This document shows positions 8,186-29,623 of a DNA stretch of 64,000 nt, piece by piece; position 1 is the first letter of the stretch, and each line of letters starts with the position of its first letter. The DNA is from an uncultured Psychroserpens sp. (GTDB lineage Bacteria > Bacteroidota > Bacteroidia > Flavobacteriales > Flavobacteriaceae), in contig NZ_CANMVN010000002.1 in assembly GCF_947501425.1 (NCBI RefSeq), positions 1 to 64,000 of the forward strand, given 5' to 3'. The notes under the pieces are model-generated. The model was given only the letters and a program-made list of their open reading frames with translations. It searched no databases and had not been told where the DNA came from. The translations under genes and the position numbers were made by a program.

Positions 8186-9445
8186 TTATGTTTTTTGCTT
8201 TTTCTTTTTTGCTGCTGGAAAGAGCACATTATTTAAAATTAATCGGTAACCTGGTGATGTAGGATGAAGATCCAGTTCTGTTTTTGGGTCTCCTACTTTG
8301 TGTGTATAATCTTCCGGATCATGTCCTCCATAAAAGGTAAAAAATCCTTTTCCTTTTATTCCATGTATGTATTTTGCCTCACCATTGGTTTTATTTTCAC
8401 CCATAATCAGAACATTAGATTTTATTTCATCACGTGTAAATGATGTTGTTTGCCCCATAAATCCTTTAACTAAAGCCGTATGGTTTTGGCACAACATTGA
8501 AGGTATTGGATCCCATTTCGCCGAAAACTCCATCAGAGAAAAATAATCTGTAGTCATAGGAATACGACGCTTTCTAGTCATATCAATTGATGAAAACTCG
8601 TATACATTTGGACTTCTTTCCAGTAAGAAATCTTTAAATGCGAATGTTTTACTGTAATCTATTTTATTTTGATAACCAGCATCACTACCATCACCATCAA
8701 ACATAGGCTCGCAAATATCTACACCATCAGCAGATAAGGCAATATCAAAACTATCTGTTGCACTACACATAGCAAACATAAATCCGCCTCCTATAACATA
8801 TTCTCTAATTTTTTTGGCTACTGCTAATTTCTCTTCGGAGACTTTAGCGTATCCTAATCTTGCTGCTAATTCTTCTGCTTCTTTCTTTTCTTGAATATAC
8901 CAAGATGCAGAACGATAGGCTCTGTAGAACTTTCCGTATTGTCCAGTAAAATCTTCATGATGTAAATGTAACCAATCGTATAAAAGCAAAGCATCATTTA
9001 AAACTTCTTCATCATATACTGTTTCATAAGGAATTTCAGCATAAGTCAATACCATAGTTACAGCATCATCCCAAGGCTGCAAACCTTTTGGCGTGTATAC
9101 TGCAATTTTAGGAGCTTTCTCTAAAACAACAGCTTCCATATTTTGAGATGGACTGGCAATCATATTTAGAATCTCCTCTGCTTTAGCATTTGAAATGACT
9201 TCAAAACTCACGCCTCTTATTTGACATTCACGTTGAATTTCTTCAGAATCGGGTAGTAAAAATGAGCCACCTTTATAGTTGAGCAACCACTTTACTTTGA
9301 GTTGCTTTTCGAGCGTCCAAAAAGTAACACCATAAGCTTTAAGGTGATTATCTTGACCCTCCGCATCCATAGGAATTAAAATATATGATGCATATGAAGG
9401 TAAAGCAACCAACATTAGAAAGAGTAAAACAATTATCTTTTTCAT
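8186..9445 (-). CDS. Conserved secreted protein often labelled asparagine synthetase B
   Basis: A 419-residue protein with a signal peptide (MKKIIVLLFLMLVALPSYA) that is highly conserved in Flavobacteriia. Databases frequently call it asparagine synthetase B, but I see neither the N-terminal catalytic Cys of a class II glutamine amidotransferase nor the SGGxDS ATP-pyrophosphatase loop. A signal peptide also makes no sense for that enzyme. Visible conserved features are GGFMFAMCSATDSFD, CEPMFDGDGSD and GGHDPEDY, which resemble a secreted or membrane-associated Rossmann-like glutamine-amidotransferase-type fold. The function is unknown. It lies 19 nt upstream of the cyclase gene in the same direction. 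Confidence 0.8.
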   Translation of the reverse strand: MKKIIVLLFLMLVALPSYASYILIPMDAEGQDNHLKAYGVTFWTLEKQLKVKWLLNYKGGSFLLPDSEEIQRECQIRGVSFEVISNAKAEEILNMIASPSQNMEAVVLEKAPKIAVYTPKGLQPWDDAVTMVLTYAEIPYETVYDEEVLNDALLLYDWLHLHHEDFTGQYGKFYRAYRSASWYIQEKKEAEELAARLGYAKVSEEKLAVAKKIREYVIGGGFMFAMCSATDSFDIALSADGVDICEPMFDGDGSDAGYQNKIDYSKTFAFKDFLLERSPNVYEFSSIDMTRKRRIPMTTDYFSLMEFSAKWDPIPSMLCQNHTALVKGFMGQTTSFTRDEIKSNVLIMGENKTNGEAKYIHGIKGKGFFTFYGGHDPEDYTHKVGDPKTELDLHPTSPGYRLILNNVLFPAAKKKKQKT

Positions 9446-24606: not shown

Positions 24607-24722
24607 CTTTTACTCAACTCTTATTTCCTTAATTTCCTCTACATTCAATAATATCCTTTTTTTAGAATAATAGTGATACTATTAAAAAAAACATAAAATT
24701 TAGTGTAGTCCTAAAAAAAGCT

Positions 24723-24736
24723 TATTTTTGTTTAAC
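24723..24736 (+). promoter_or_regulatory. carH-like promoter -7 element with overlapping half-operator
   Basis: TATTTTTG (24723-24730) fits the -7 consensus and would start transcription near 24737, about 15 nt before the ATG. TTGTTTAAC (24728-24736) overlaps it. The 13-mer TTGTTTAACTTTT here is identical to one in the crtI promoter (25674-25686), suggesting that the regulator controls both its own gene and the crt operon. Confidence 0.55.
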
Positions 24737-24751
24737 TTTTTTATTCTAAAA

Positions 24752-25651
24752 ATGAACAACGTAAAAAGTACTTTTAGCATCAAGGACCTAGAAAACCTTA
24801 CAGGTATCAAGGCTCATACCATAAGAATCTGGGAGAAAAGATATAATCTTTTACAACCTGAAAGAACAGATACTAATATTAGATATTACAGTTTGGGTAA
24901 TCTTCAAAAGCTACTCAATATTAGTTACCTCAACAACAATGGTTTTAAGATTTCTAAGATTGCATCTTTAGACCCTACCGAGATTACTAAATTAGTGAAA
25001 GAAGTAGCTCAAAATGACACTACGAACAATCACGCTATCGATACTTTCAAATTATCGATGCTCAACTTTGATCAAAAGTTATTTTATGACACTTATAATA
25101 GTTTACTGAAAGAAAAGAATTTCACAGATATCTTTTATGAGGACTTTATTCCTCTACTTTCAGAGATAGGGTTACTGTGGCAAACAGATACTATTACTCC
25201 GGCTCATGAGCATTTCTTAACGTCTTTAATAAGACAAAAGATATTAATAAACACAGAGCTTTTACAATCTAAAAATCCTGTTGATACAAATCAAGTATTT
25301 GTATTATATCTACCAGATAACGAAGTTCATGAATTAGGCTTAATGCTCATTAATTATGAAATTATAGCTAGAGGTCATCAAGCCATTTTCCTTGGCCAAA
25401 GTGTACCTTTAGACAGTCTTGGAGATCTCCTTAATTATTACGACGACATTACCTTTGTGTCCTATTTCACTGTAAAACCTGAAAAAGATCAAATTGCAGA
25501 CTACCTTAAACAGTTTGAAGAGAAAATGTTAGCAAATAAATCCATGAAATTATGGATTTTAGGACGAATGTTAGATGAAATTGACTTAAATTCATTACCA
25601 AAACAGATTGTTCCGTTTAGTACCATCAAAGATTTAGTTAAAAAACTCTAA
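24752..25651 (+). CDS. MerR-family regulator with CarH-type B12 photoreceptor motifs
   Basis: A 299-residue protein from ATG 24752; an upstream TTG would add eight residues. Residues 9-55 are a MerR winged helix-turn-helix (IKAHTIRIWEKRYNLLQPER). Residues of about 100-175 form the helical cap seen in CarH and carry W143-x9-E153-H154. From about 180 a Rossmann-like cobalamin-binding domain carries E191-x-H193-x-x-G196. Both signatures are those of adenosylcobalamin-dependent CarH light sensors, which as tetramers repress carotenoid genes in the dark. The residue after Trp143 is Gln, where I recall His132 in Thermus CarH, so the photochemistry may differ. The gene is immediately upstream of crtI-B-Z-Y on the same strand, and its promoter shares the presumed operator. 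Confidence 0.9.
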   Translation: MNNVKSTFSIKDLENLTGIKAHTIRIWEKRYNLLQPERTDTNIRYYSLGNLQKLLNISYLNNNGFKISKIASLDPTEITKLVKEVAQNDTTNNHAIDTFKLSMLNFDQKLFYDTYNSLLKEKNFTDIFYEDFIPLLSEIGLLWQTDTITPAHEHFLTSLIRQKILINTELLQSKNPVDTNQVFVLYLPDNEVHELGLMLINYEIIARGHQAIFLGQSVPLDSLGDLLNYYDDITFVSYFTVKPEKDQIADYLKQFEEKMLANKSMKLWILGRMLDEIDLNSLPKQIVPFSTIKDLVKKL

Positions 25652-25658
25652 AAATTTA

Positions 25659-25705
25659 TTGCTCAAGTTAAAATTGTTTAACTTTTGTATAAATTTGTTA
25701 AACAA
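25659..25705 (+). promoter_or_regulatory. crtI promoter with overlapping inverted-repeat operators
   Basis: TTG (25659-25661), 17 nt, then TAACTTTTG (25679-25687), or alternatively TAAATTTG at 25690-25697. AAGTTAAA-ATTG-TTTAACTT (25665-25684) is a perfect inverted repeat lying between the -33 and -7 elements, the usual place for MerR-family operators. TTGTTTAAC (25674-25682) also forms a perfect inverted repeat with GTTAAACAA (25697-25705), whose last base is the A of the crtI ATG. Three TTTAAC/GTTAAA half-sites in 40 bp suit binding by a tetrameric CarH-like repressor. Confidence 0.6.
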
Positions 25706-27168
25706 TGAAAAAACACATCGCCATAATCGGTTCTGGATTCTCAGCACTATCAGCATCCTGTTATTTAGCAAAAGAGGGGTATGACGTCACTATGTTTGAA
25801 AAAAACAGTACAGTTGGTGGCCGTTGCAGACAATTTAAAAAAGAAGGTTTTACATTCGATATTGGTCCGAGCTGGTATTGGATGCCTGACATTTTTGATA
25901 AGTTTTTTGGAGATTTTGGTAAAAAAACATCAGACTACTATCAACTTGATAAACTGAGTCCAGCATATAAAATTTTCTTCAAAGACGAAGTTATTACTAT
26001 AGGAGACACACTTGAAAAAATATGTGATGAATTTGAGCGTATTGAGCCAGGAAGTTCTAAACCACTCAAAAAATTTATAAATAAGGCTGCCACCAATTAT
26101 GATATCGCTATAAACAAGGTTGTTCTCAAACCAGGTATATCGCCTTTTGAACTGGTAACACCTGAAACAGCAATGCGAGTAGATCAGTTTTTTAAAACAA
26201 TTAGTAGTGATGTGAGACGCAATTTCAAAAACCCTAAATTGATATCAACACTTGAATTCCCTGTACTATTTTTAGGTGCTAAACCAAGTAATACACCATC
26301 ATTTTACAGTTTTATGAATTATGCCGACTTTGGTCTAGGAACCTGGCACCCTAAAGGTGGCATGTACGAAATCATAAAAGCTATGAGCGCTTTGGCAGAA
26401 AGCTTAGGAGTTAAAATACATACAAATAGTCCAGTTGACAAAATTAATGTTGAACAAAAAAATGCTATCTCTGTTGAGATACATGGAGAAGAAAAAATAT
26501 TTGATGTTGTATTGAGTGGCGCAGATTATCATCATACTGAAACATTACTTGACCAAAAACACCGTCAATATTCAGAAGATTACTGGGAAAATAAAACGTT
26601 TGCACCTTCCTCACTTTTATTTTATGTAGGATTTGATAAGAAACTTAAAAACATACAACACCACAACCTATTTTTTGACACCAATTTTGAGACACATGCC
26701 GAAGAGATTTATGATGATCCAAAATGGCCTGAAGACCCACTGTTCTACGCTAATTTCCCTTCAGTTACAGATGAAACCATGGCTCCAGATAACAGTGAAA
26801 CCGGATTTTTTCTAATCCCAATCGCTCCAGGTATCGAAGATACTGACGAGTTACGAGCTCAATATTTCGACATTATCATGTCCCGCTTTGAAAAATTGAC
26901 GAAGCAAAATGTAAAAAATAATATTATCTTTAAAGAGTCCTTCTGTGTTAAGGATTTTATAAAAGAGTACAATTCATACAAAGGAAATGCCTATGGAATG
27001 GCCAACACACTATCCCAGACTGCGTTTCTAAGACCTAAACTAAAAAGTAAAAAAGTAAACAACCTTTATTTTACAGGTCAGTTAACTGTTCCAGGACCAG
27101 GAGTACCTCCTTCATTAATTTCTGGTAAGTTAGTCTCAGAATTAATAAAAAAACACCACAAAAACTAA
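25705..27168 (+). CDS. crtI: Phytoene desaturase (lycopene-forming type)
   Basis: FAD-dependent desaturase that turns phytoene into lycopene. The 487-residue length is typical. The N-terminal dinucleotide-binding motif is IIGSGFSALSASCYLAKEG (residues 7-25), followed by the GGRCRQFKKEGFTFDIGPSW segment common to CrtI. The C-terminus has the carotenoid desaturase FTGQLTVPGPGVPPSLISG signature. First gene of crtI-crtB-crtZ-crtY, with gaps of 1 to 15 nt, so one transcript is expected, under control of the overlapping operator and the adjacent CarH-like regulator. Confidence 0.96.
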   Translation: MKKHIAIIGSGFSALSASCYLAKEGYDVTMFEKNSTVGGRCRQFKKEGFTFDIGPSWYWMPDIFDKFFGDFGKKTSDYYQLDKLSPAYKIFFKDEVITIGDTLEKICDEFERIEPGSSKPLKKFINKAATNYDIAINKVVLKPGISPFELVTPETAMRVDQFFKTISSDVRRNFKNPKLISTLEFPVLFLGAKPSNTPSFYSFMNYADFGLGTWHPKGGMYEIIKAMSALAESLGVKIHTNSPVDKINVEQKNAISVEIHGEEKIFDVVLSGADYHHTETLLDQKHRQYSEDYWENKTFAPSSLLFYVGFDKKLKNIQHHNLFFDTNFETHAEEIYDDPKWPEDPLFYANFPSVTDETMAPDNSETGFFLIPIAPGIEDTDELRAQYFDIIMSRFEKLTKQNVKNNIIFKESFCVKDFIKEYNSYKGNAYGMANTLSQTAFLRPKLKSKKVNNLYFTGQLTVPGPGVPPSLISGKLVSELIKKHHKN

Positions 27169-27169
27169 T

Positions 27170-28009
27170 ATGAAAGCTATTTTTGATACCGTTTCAAACC
27201 AATGTAGTAAGACAGTTACCAAATCTTACAGTACTTCTTTTTCGTTAGCCACCAAAATGTTATCCAATTCTATACGCCAGGATATATATAATATTTATGG
27301 TTTTGTAAGATTTGCAGATGAAATTGTAGATACATTTCATGATTACGATAAAGAATTATTATTTAATAATTTTACTAAAGATCTAGAACTAGCTCTCGAA
27401 CACAAAATAAGTCTCAATCCAATATTAAACTCATTTCAGGAAACATTTCACAAATATGAAATCGATATGGAATTAGTCAATGCTTTTATGAAAAGTATGC
27501 GACTGGATTTACACAAACAAGACTACCTTACAGATGCTGAATACAAAGAGTATATCTATGGTTCTGCGGATGTAGTAGGTTTAATGTGTTTAAAAGTTTT
27601 TGTTAAAGGTGATAACGAAAAATATGAATCGCTTAAAGACTCAGCAATGAGTTTAGGCTCGGCATTTCAGAAGGTGAATTTTTTAAGAGATCTAAAGGCT
27701 GATTTTGAAGATCTGAGTAGAACTTACTTTCCTAATACAGACCTCAATCAATTAGATGAAGCATCTAAGCAAGCCATTATTGACGATATTGAAAATGATT
27801 TTGCCAAAGGACTTCATGGTATTAAAAAACTACCTATTGAAGCTAAGTTTGGTGTGTTTATGGCCTACAGGTATTACAGCCAATTACTCAAAAAGCTAAA
27901 AAAGACACCAGCTCTTGAAATAAAATCAACCAGAATAAGAGTACCAAACTATAAAAAGTTTGAGTTACTCACACGTAGTTATGTAAAGTATCAACTTAAT
28001 TTATTATAA
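27170..28009 (+). CDS. crtB: Phytoene synthase
   Basis: Condenses two geranylgeranyl diphosphates to phytoene. The 279-residue protein has the two Asp-rich metal-diphosphate motifs of the squalene/phytoene synthase family: ADEIVDTFHDYD (near residue 50) and RDLKADFEDL (near residue 174). It starts one base after the crtI stop. No GGPP synthase gene is in the window, so the precursor enzyme is encoded elsewhere. Confidence 0.96.
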   Translation: MKAIFDTVSNQCSKTVTKSYSTSFSLATKMLSNSIRQDIYNIYGFVRFADEIVDTFHDYDKELLFNNFTKDLELALEHKISLNPILNSFQETFHKYEIDMELVNAFMKSMRLDLHKQDYLTDAEYKEYIYGSADVVGLMCLKVFVKGDNEKYESLKDSAMSLGSAFQKVNFLRDLKADFEDLSRTYFPNTDLNQLDEASKQAIIDDIENDFAKGLHGIKKLPIEAKFGVFMAYRYYSQLLKKLKKTPALEIKSTRIRVPNYKKFELLTRSYVKYQLNLL

Positions 28010-28012
28010 AAC

Positions 28013-28462
28013 ATGCAAACTGTATTTTGGATTCTTATTTTTTTAGGTGTGTTCTGCACTATGGAATTTATGGCTTGGTTTACCCATAAGTATGTCATGC
28101 ATGGCTTTTTATGGAGTTTACACAAAGATCACCATCATAAAGATCATAAAAGTTGGTTTGAAAGGAACGATGCCTTTTTTATATTCTATGCTGTTGTCAG
28201 CATGATTTGCTTCTATCTCTGGAGCTATGAAGATATCTGGTATTGTTTACCCATTGGTTTAGGAATTATGGCTTATGGAGCTACTTATTTCTTAGTTCAT
28301 GATATTTTTATCCACCAACGTTTCAAACTGTTCAGAAATGCGAATAATTGGTATGCAAAAGGTGTTCGAAGAGCACACAAAATTCATCATAAGCATCTTG
28401 GTAAAAGTGACGGTGAATGCTTCGGAATGTTATTTGTTCCATTAAAATATTTTAAAAAATAG
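28013..28462 (+). CDS. crtZ: Beta-carotene hydroxylase
   Basis: A di-iron membrane hydroxylase that adds 3-hydroxyls to the beta-ionone rings, turning beta-carotene into zeaxanthin. The 149 residues include about four membrane segments and the four histidine clusters of the fatty-acid-hydroxylase superfamily: HKYVMHG, HKDHHHKDH, HDIFIHQR and HKIHHKH. It follows crtB by 3 nt. Because no crtW ketolase is present here, zeaxanthin is the expected end product. Confidence 0.95.
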   Translation: MQTVFWILIFLGVFCTMEFMAWFTHKYVMHGFLWSLHKDHHHKDHKSWFERNDAFFIFYAVVSMICFYLWSYEDIWYCLPIGLGIMAYGATYFLVHDIFIHQRFKLFRNANNWYAKGVRRAHKIHHKHLGKSDGECFGMLFVPLKYFKK

Positions 28463-28477
28463 TTTTTTCGAGCATCT

Positions 28478-29623
28478 ATGACTGATTCTTCCCATTTCGA
28501 TTATATCATTATAGGAAATGGTTTAGCTGGTTTACAACTGGCTTTAAAACTTGCTTCAGATCCGTATTTTGATAAGCACTCGATCGCTCTAATTGATCCT
28601 TCAGAAAAAAACACCAACGATAAAACCTGGAGTTTTTGGGAAACCCAACCGTCTCAATGGACATCAATTATCCATAAATCCTGGAATAAAGCTGCTATAT
28701 TAACATCAGATAACTCTATTGAGCTCGACCTCAAACCTTACAGTTACAATACCATTCGTGCTATAGACTTTTATAGAGAAGCTAAAACTAAACTCAAGCA
28801 GCATGACAACATTCATTTTATTCTTGAACACGTTACAACAGTTTCAGAAAAAAGCCCCGTTACTGTAACCACAAATAGAAATAGTTACTCTGCTACTCAT
28901 GTATTTGACAGTCGAGTACCTGAGACATTTTCTAAAGCATCAAAAAACAGTATCTCAATCATTCAGCATTTTAAAGGCTGGATAATCAAAACAGAAAAAG
29001 ATAGTTTTGACGAAAACAAGGTAATCATGATGGATTATCGCTTAAAAGATGGAGACCAAACCACATTTACCTACGTCCTCCCCTTTTCTAAAAGAGAAGC
29101 ATTGGTAGAGTTTACTTATTTCACTGAACATACGGTCAAAGAAGGGGTTTATGATAGTTTTATTAAGACCTATATCAAAGATTATTTAAATATAGACACC
29201 TACAGTATTGTTGAAACTGAAATGGGTCAGATACCAATGTCTAACTACAACTTTTCAAAATTCAACACTAAGTACATTACCAAAATTGGTACAGGTGGTG
29301 GCTGGGTTAAAGGATCAACAGGATATTCGTTTAAACATACTGAAAAGAAAGTTTCTAAAATCATTGAGAATTTAAAAACCGATAAAATACCATCACATCA
29401 ACTTTTTAAAAGTAAATATCGATTCTACGATAAAGTCTTTCTAAAAGTTCTTAAAGATGAAAATCATAAAGGCGAATGGATCTTTCAGCAATTTTATGAC
29501 AAAAACAGCGTACAAACCATGTTTCGCTTTTTAGATGAAGAATCCATGTTTTCAGAAGAACTTAAAATTATGATGTCATTATTTTCCTGGAGTTTTATCA
29601 AAGCATTTTTCAAAACGCTTTAA
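28478..29623 (+). CDS. crtY: Lycopene beta-cyclase
   Basis: Flavoprotein that closes the two beta rings of lycopene to give beta-carotene. The 381 residues begin with a dinucleotide-binding segment (YIIIGNGLAGLQLALKL), and NDKTWSFWE is the hallmark of CrtY-type cyclases. It comes after crtZ by 15 nt, last in the operon, and its end overlaps the convergent TlpA-like gene by 14 nt. Cyclisation precedes hydroxylation in the pathway although crtZ is transcribed first. Confidence 0.94.
   Translation: MTDSSHFDYIIIGNGLAGLQLALKLASDPYFDKHSIALIDPSEKNTNDKTWSFWETQPSQWTSIIHKSWNKAAILTSDNSIELDLKPYSYNTIRAIDFYREAKTKLKQHDNIHFILEHVTTVSEKSPVTVTTNRNSYSATHVFDSRVPETFSKASKNSISIIQHFKGWIIKTEKDSFDENKVIMMDYRLKDGDQTTFTYVLPFSKREALVEFTYFTEHTVKEGVYDSFIKTYIKDYLNIDTYSIVETEMGQIPMSNYNFSKFNTKYITKIGTGGGWVKGSTGYSFKHTEKKVSKIIENLKTDKIPSHQLFKSKYRFYDKVFLKVLKDENHKGEWIFQQFYDKNSVQTMFRFLDEESMFSEELKIMMSLFSWSFIKAFFKTL

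Follow-up and report, generated by a model that had tools for sequence, protein, structure and literature searches.

A CarH-like regulator and an inverted repeat shared by carotenoid, proteorhodopsin and folE loci: a candidate B12-dependent light switch in marine flavobacteria

Organization of the locus

The window, i.e. the whole stretch of 64,000 nucleotides that was analyzed, contains a gene for a MerR-family regulator, followed on the same strand by a carotenoid operon. The genes are listed below, along with the promoter elements and candidate operators.

24723..24730, + strand: -7 box TATTTTTG (TAnnTTTG) of the regulator gene, after the consensus of PMC9723704
24728..24759, + strand: candidate operator O1, TTGTTTAA-N16-ATGAACAA, its second half-site being the start codon region
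24752..25651, + strand: CarH/LitR-like MerR regulator, 299 aa (ORF translation, Pfam, PDB match, homologue alignment, model)
25674..25705, + strand: candidate operator O2, a perfect inverted repeat TTGTTTAA-N16-TTAAACAA in the regulator-crtI gap, its last base being the A of the crtI ATG
25690..25697, + strand: -7 box TAAATTTG, adjoining the second half-site of O2
25705..27168, + strand: crtI, phytoene desaturase (NCBIfam CrtID, 728 bits, cut-off 640)
27170..28009, + strand: crtB, phytoene synthase (SQS_PSY, 9.9e-48)
28013..28462, + strand: putative crtZ, carotene hydroxylase (name based on its place and His boxes)
28478..29623, + strand: crtY, lycopene cyclase (Lycopene_cycl, 1.8e-52)

Two tRNA genes (Lys and Leu) are found upstream of the regulator on the same strand, which suggests that the regulator begins a transcription unit of its own. 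A sequence-only reading of this DNA had named crtI-B-Z-Y as the genes directly downstream, and the assignment is borne out for crtI, crtB and crtY, which are recognized by family models; for 28013-28462 no Pfam or NCBIfam family was matched, and the name crtZ goes by place and His boxes. The CrtID model is that of a "bifunctional phytoene desaturase/3,4-desaturase"; as crtI scores above its cut-off, the end product is possibly not zeaxanthin alone.

Linkage to crtI is common: the gene lies within 200 nt downstream of the regulator in 118 of 138 loci, own included, and crtB takes this place in 6. A MerR gene found together with a crt cluster, or heading it, is already in print for Sediminicola YIK13 (PMC4732338), Flavobacterium TH167 (PMC5887021) and Nonlabens spongiae (PMC11855829); for the light-induced carotenoid of a Chryseobacterium, a CarA/LitR-like gene has been speculated upon (PMC7064467). 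In two Arenibacter loci, L138 and L141, the regulator occurs without crt genes in the DNA fetched. A copy of the palindrome described below, with one mismatch, lies there ahead of the next gene (9272-9303 and 9125-9156, respectively); in L138 it is followed by a TetR-like gene, an ABC1/UbiB-like kinase and an SDR-like gene, all named by eye.

Domains and predicted fold of the regulator

In a DNA alignment of 11 regions, conservation supports the ATG at 24752 as the start; a TTG at 24728 would give a longer frame. The sequence-only reading had described the product as a MerR-family protein with both motifs of B12 light sensors. This is confirmed by the translation, where W143, Q144, E153, H154, E191, H193 and G196 are all found at these positions, and by the homologue conservation reported below. 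The domain order is MerR wHTH, helical cap (W143-x9-E153-H154) and Rossmann-like domain (E191-x-H193-x-x-G196). The recognition helix, of the RxWERRY type, reads R25-I-W27-E28-K29-R30-Y31; its R, W, E, R and Y are present in 136 of 137 homologues, the remaining one having a gap.

Pfam recognizes MerR_1 (2e-15) and the helical B12-binding_2 (2.1e-8). The PF02310 model is not reached by the Rossmann half of the regulator, nor by any of 17 members examined; a PF02310 profile search of the whole genome returned three other proteins, of mutase/MetH-like sizes, and not the regulator. By sequence, the closest PDB entry is that of Thermus CarH (3whp/5c8d; E about 1e-13), W143, Q144 and H193 being aligned to Thermus W131, H132 and H177 (numbering of PMC10442372 and PMC11796333). 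H193 is thereby placed on the His that is the lower axial ligand in Thermus, and by alignment the same role is predicted for it here.

Structure prediction likewise gives a CarH fold. For an AlphaFold2 model built on 17 sequences (mean pLDDT 85.7), the best Foldseek match is full-length Thermus thermophilus CarH (TtCarH) 5c8f, with an E of 4.2e-13; 5c8f, 5c8e and 5c8d are at the top (from 4e-13), and further matches include TtCarH cobalamin domains and CtMerR (8jbs, E 1.3e-7). The closest five named relatives of the regulator are from Psychroserpens, at 82-85% identity.

Conservation of the B12-sensor motifs

Of the family's 149 genomes, the own one counted, 120 have a homologue; a phylum-level search reached 252 of 395 genomes at E <= 0.001, many of them by a match to just the HTH or just the cap. 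Conservation was counted over 137 homologues, query excluded. G140, W143, E153, E191 and H193 are present in all of them, H154 in 124 (R in 11, S in 2) and G196 in 130. When the 215 C-terminal positions are ranked over 154 sequences with at least 42% identity, the first five residues are joint 1st, G196 is 26th and H154 39th. In some of the 137 homologues identity goes down to 31-37%, with W143, E153, E191 and H193 unchanged; among 69 more distant sequences, E153 is retained in 100%, W143 in 94%, H154 in 93%, H193 in 88% and E191 in 72%. A consistent absence of the His and Trp-Glu-His residues from close homologues, which the sequence-only reading had named as evidence against itself, is therefore not what these counts show.

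Departures from the CarH pattern, overlooked by that reading, are found elsewhere in the domain. The nucleotide-pocket motif x41-SxT/V-x22-27-GG is altered (x40, S237-Y-F239, G271-R272), its second Gly being unconserved. Of the SignatureFinder set, GxxW, EH and GxxxP are present; the glycine of GxxH is replaced by N190 (Asn in 102 of the 137 homologues, Gly in 14). The NCBIfam CarH equivalog model NF052513 gives the regulator 73.3 bits, against a cut-off of 400. Because of these three features the name "CarH-like" is used here, rather than CarH; the altered SxT/V...GG motif, together with the missed PF02310 match, indicates a cofactor pocket that is possibly different or weak.

The same pocket features favor an alternative, in which the regulator binds the repeat described below and controls the crt, proteorhodopsin and folE genes, its B12 fold being a leftover and the light cue being supplied by a partner protein, or by oxidative stress, in the manner of CarA or of class II LitR, the latter providing a precedent (PMC9758184). 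This alternative is considered unlikely. It has to account for four residues kept invariant in 137 homologues despite the divergence of some of them, and for the Trp of the cap, which CarA lost (PMC9304148) and which is kept here. Moreover, CarH-like paralogues from other Bacteroidota families (L200, L203, L206, L211, L220), possibly CarA-like B12-independent regulators, have lost several of the B12-motif residues: the fold permits their loss and does not by itself force their retention. The regulator is, in our view, likely to be a CarH-like B12 sensor.

Glutamine at the position of His132

At position 144, corresponding to TtCarH His132, the sequence-only reading had noted a Gln, taken as a possible variant of the light-state chemistry. 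The Gln is present, and it is the norm of the clade, not a local variant: 122 of the 137 homologues have Gln and 3 have His, a residue that many CarH proteins share at this position, though not every one. Gln is found in 97% of the 154 sequences with at least 42% identity, versus 19% of the 69 more distant ones. Lack of the His132-type ligand thus characterizes the clade, and the state after photolysis could not be bis-His through this residue, unlike in Thermus.

The TtCarH variant H132A keeps its photochemistry and stays mostly tetrameric in the light, earlier work having seen disassembly (PMC10442372); a Gln protein might therefore fail to release DNA. Both the hampered release of H132A and the loss of the known light-state ligand speak for a sensor of B12 status rather than of light, which would repress when bound to AdoCbl and be inactive as apoprotein, the carotenoid and rhodopsin genes following the vitamin supply. 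Against it stand SasPcob and CtMerR, with Gln and Arg, respectively, at the His132 position and both light-responsive (PMC11796333), as well as the light-related nature of the recurrent targets reported below. A role limited to B12 status thus appears quite improbable; AdoCbl being photolabile in any case, the two roles are not mutually exclusive.

An inverted repeat at the regulator and crtI promoters

The TnnACA half-sites of the inverted repeat are of CarH type, and the two dyads overlap the -7 boxes of both the regulator gene and crtI. The second half-site of O1, ATGAACAA, is formed by the start codon and codons 2-3. In the 64-kb window, no exact dyad match occurs beyond 24728-24759 and 25674-25705. 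An 8-mer agrees with the TnnACA core by chance in an estimated few per cent of cases, so that a link to CarH drawn from this agreement is only suggestive. When direct 11-bp TnnACA repeats, in the style of Thermus and Bacillus CarH, were looked for by eye, no conserved arrangement was seen; the inverted one is conserved. TnnACA is the known core of CarH half-sites (PMC9304148), and TAnnTTTG has been located at -12 to -5 in Flavobacterium psychrophilum (PMC9723704). A perfect palindrome, AATAGT-GAT-ACTATT, is also present upstream of the regulator promoter (24669-24683), in some, not all, of 11 aligned regions.

Conservation of the repeat was evaluated after removal of identical proteins or upstream stretches from repeat, offset and codon counts, and of the truncated locus L114 from upstream-region counts; since the sequences are related, the counts do not represent independent events. 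With sites anchored on TAnnTTTG alone, TTTA follows the box directly at 105 of 129 sites upstream of the regulator, versus 2 of 273 upstream of the other genes in these loci; no strongly conserved column was seen at the -33 element upstream of the regulator. TTGTTTA is found within 60 nt of the regulator ATG in 112 of 154 loci: at distance 24 in 92, at 21 in 9, elsewhere in 11. The promoter repeat is not universal, which counts against the reading proposed below. Of the 92 loci with the distance of 24, 90 have TnnACA at offset 25; in the nine loci where the ATG is 3 nt closer, seven retain TnnACA at the same offset, using different codons. Codon 2 of the regulator is AAC in 99 and AAT in 5 of the 154 loci, versus 20 and 59 in 1141 other ORFs. 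The codon bias, and the offset kept by different codons, indicate that selection acts on the DNA.

Downstream of the regulator, gaps of 30-120 nt to the first long open ATG frame (not always crtI) contain the inverted repeat in 83 of 105 cases, where shuffles lead to expect 3.4; the offset is 24 in 79 of them. When offsets from 17 to 32 are compared, 24 is dominant (104 and 106 matches; next highest 26 and 13). Allowing one mismatch at most, 118 of 153 loci have O1 and 83 have O2.

On these alignments, the repeat is probably the docking site of the regulator. It might instead belong to another factor, or to a special promoter type, the regulator acting elsewhere. The fusion of the first O1 half-site to the TAnnTTTG box points this way; the frequency of the repeat at the regulator's own promoter, the CarH type of its half-sites and the absence of the TTTA extension from 271 of the 273 TAnnTTTG boxes of other genes point to the regulator, and another owner of the repeat is held to be very unlikely.

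H154 is replaced in a subgroup of 14 loci (Arg 11, Ser 2, Gln 1: L078, L080, L081, L084, L085, L090, L096, L100-L103, L105, L111, L172). Of its members 2 keep O1, versus 116 of the 139 others, and 12 keep O2. These loci, which may represent few evolutionary events, could have changed sensing or lost autoregulation; they are a point in favor of B12-independent action.

Recurrence of the repeat at other light-related genes

The own genome has 13 exact dyad places. In an AT-rich genome an exact match is weak evidence, and weight is therefore put on recurrence at the same genes. The dyad, at one mismatch at most, is not enriched genome-wide (113, versus 114 for a control pattern), and exact copies elsewhere amount to 10 sites in 2.5 Mb of loci, one strand being counted. 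One exact dyad of the own genome is located between a rhodopsin gene (PF01036, 1.3e-40) and a divergent blh (TIGR03753, 8e-54); another lies between a cryptochrome/photolyase gene (PF03441, 1.1e-63) and a 116-aa ORF, DUF2805 and folE. The remaining exact matches of this genome at L287, L288 and L291-L296 are not claimed as targets, the one-mismatch list being mostly noise; nor is the site 299 nt upstream of katG (L290), from which it is separated by what looks, by eye, like a terminator hairpin.

The proteorhodopsin scan covered all genomes with a match among the 149, giving 30 loci, 29 of them with upstream DNA (L333 has none). Two degenerate forms of the pattern were allowed, in the shuffles likewise. 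Upstream of the 29 genes, own included, the dyad is found with 0 mismatches in 10, with 1 in 7, with 2 in 5 and with 3 in 7; no shuffle gave 0 mismatches, and 1.8% gave one. The dyad accompanies proteorhodopsin in 15 of 23 genomes with the regulator versus 2 of 6 without, a difference in the expected direction, not significant (p=0.20). The two latter genomes, G079 and G147 (81% and 73% complete), where the repeat is kept and the regulator was not detected, favor its attribution to another factor.

For the folE cluster, the 30 best DUF2805 loci, from 83 genomes with a match, were analyzed. The 16-base palindrome, with two mismatches at most, is present in 26 of these 30, versus 2.1% of shuffles. 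In 25 it has a fixed place, 476-517 nt before DUF2805 and ahead of the 116-aa gene; in L354 it is located at another place. Of the four loci without it, L360 has a 3-mismatch copy at the usual place, and the other three lack the 116-aa gene. The palindrome is usually followed by a -7-like box, lying upstream of the box and not on it, an arrangement that argues against a special promoter type. Within 1.5-kb flanks of the 30 best loci, folE is found in 23 and a cryptochrome gene in 14. The 116-aa ORF itself (L297, 1643-1993), the first gene after the repeat in the DUF2805-folE cluster, has no Pfam or NCBIfam match; tblastn matches it in 27 of the 30 best DUF2805 loci, own included.

Cofactor supply

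Many marine bacteria require the import of B12. An adenosyltransferase is encoded in the own genome, and the regulator is present in 116 of 137 genomes with a PF01923 adenosyltransferase, versus 4 of 12 without (p=2.4e-4, uncorrected for relatedness or completeness). This co-occurrence would suit a sensor of B12 status as well. The 4 regulator-bearing genomes, of 120, that have no PF01923, two of them 99% complete, count instead for B12-independent action. G064 (L072, L317; 1.7 Mb, 99% complete) carries the regulator, crt genes and proteorhodopsin with a 1-mismatch repeat; no PF01923 adenosyltransferase was found in it, and its sole PF02310 protein is MetH-like in size, which speaks against the reading given below.

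Proposed mechanism

Motifs, predicted fold, conservation of the repeat and its recurrence at the same genes form the basis of the following reading, which we regard as rather probable: the regulator is a CarH-like AdoCbl photoreceptor-repressor, keeping carotenoid, proteorhodopsin/retinal and photorepair genes off in the dark. Among the CarH/LitR photoreceptor-repressors that use adenosylcobalamin, it would be a Bacteroidota variant. In the dark, AdoCbl would sit on H193, its adenosyl group beneath W143, E153 and H154, and the regulator would occupy the TnnACA dyad (TTGTTTAA-N16-TTAAACAA) overlapping or adjoining the -7 box; its own gene, crtI-B-Z-Y, the divergent proteorhodopsin/blh pair and the cryptochrome-linked folE operon would thus be repressed, rather than activated. 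In the light, the Co-C bond would be broken and the regulator released from DNA, and carotenoid, retinal, proteorhodopsin and photorepair genes would be switched on jointly. Binding of AdoCbl and of the repeat by the regulator, repression and release by light are what we infer.

The sequence-only reading had predicted light-induced zeaxanthin synthesis through B12 photolysis. Of this interpretation the CarH-type architecture, the crt linkage and a light-related predicted regulon are retained; zeaxanthin as the sole target is given up, the repeat being found also at proteorhodopsin/blh and at the folE cluster. For Dokdonia MED134, a light response of proteorhodopsin, retinal biosynthesis, cryptochrome and DNA photolyase is on record (PMC9040609); a cited title on constitutive proteorhodopsin expression in a related strain, PRO95 (PMC3587595), counts against the reading.

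Comparison to known systems

The closest known system is Thermus thermophilus CarH (class I LitR; 5c8d/5c8e/5c8f), which has the same order of MerR wHTH, four-helix cap and Rossmann domain, the Trp, Glu-His and ExHxxG motifs at matching places, a TnnACA core and control over carotenoid genes. The differences are the identity (about 20% in the fold match), Gln for His132, the altered SxT/V...GG motif, the predicted targets, which here include proteorhodopsin/blh, and the operator, made here of inverted half-sites 24 bp apart and in CarH of tandem 11-bp direct repeats (PMC9304148). CtMerR from Chloracidobacterium (8jbs/8jbt) and SasPcob are light-responsive CBDs of the SignatureFinder work, with Arg and Gln at 132 (PMC11796333); CtMerR matches the regulator weakly in fold, at 12-15% identity, and SasPcob is likened by description.

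The class II LitR proteins PmlR2/PplR1 of Pseudomonas also have two TnnACA-type half-sites per operator, and a regulon of photolyase, cryptochrome and folE (PMC9758184). Their operator is TGTACA-N12-TGTACA, 18 bp start to start; they have a four-helix B12 domain only, and a LOV partner senses the light (PMC9758184). Unlike them, the regulator has ExHxxG and a modelled Rossmann-like domain. Myxococcus CarA, a CarH-like, B12-independent crt repressor, is without the Trp of Wx9EH (PMC9304148), here found in 137 of 137 homologues.

Among flavobacteria, proteorhodopsin and blh are neighbors in YIK13 and TH167, and divergently oriented in the latter (PMC4732338, PMC5887021). The available parts of the YIK13, TH167 and N. 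spongiae papers name no B12 motif, operator or regulator-proteorhodopsin link, and these systems are likened by description. Bizionia MliR (PMC9478572), taken up as a possible ortholog, was set aside: CarH, cobalamin and crtI were not found in the text available.

Implications

In the open-licence full-text literature searched, as far as its available text goes, no regulator is named for the light-responsive expression of proteorhodopsin described for some flavobacteria (PMC9040609), and a link of the crt-associated MerR gene to B12 and proteorhodopsin is new within the same limits. The data suggest that a CarH-like regulator commands proteorhodopsin as well as carotenoids, via a shared dyad. 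We give about even chances to the broader view, that a single CarH-like B12 photoreceptor-repressor with its own operator geometry gates proteorhodopsin phototrophy across marine flavobacteria, the expression of carotenoid, retinal, proteorhodopsin and cryptochrome/folE genes being coupled to light and B12 supply through a Gln-based light state that takes the place of bis-His.

By occurring at the regulator gene, at the crt operon and at the proteorhodopsin/blh promoter, the repeat points to a specific candidate and supplies a set of DNA probes, and the clade offers a natural Gln variant for the study of CarH-type sensing without His132. If the reading is true, vitamin B12 would be the light antenna that switches on phototrophy.
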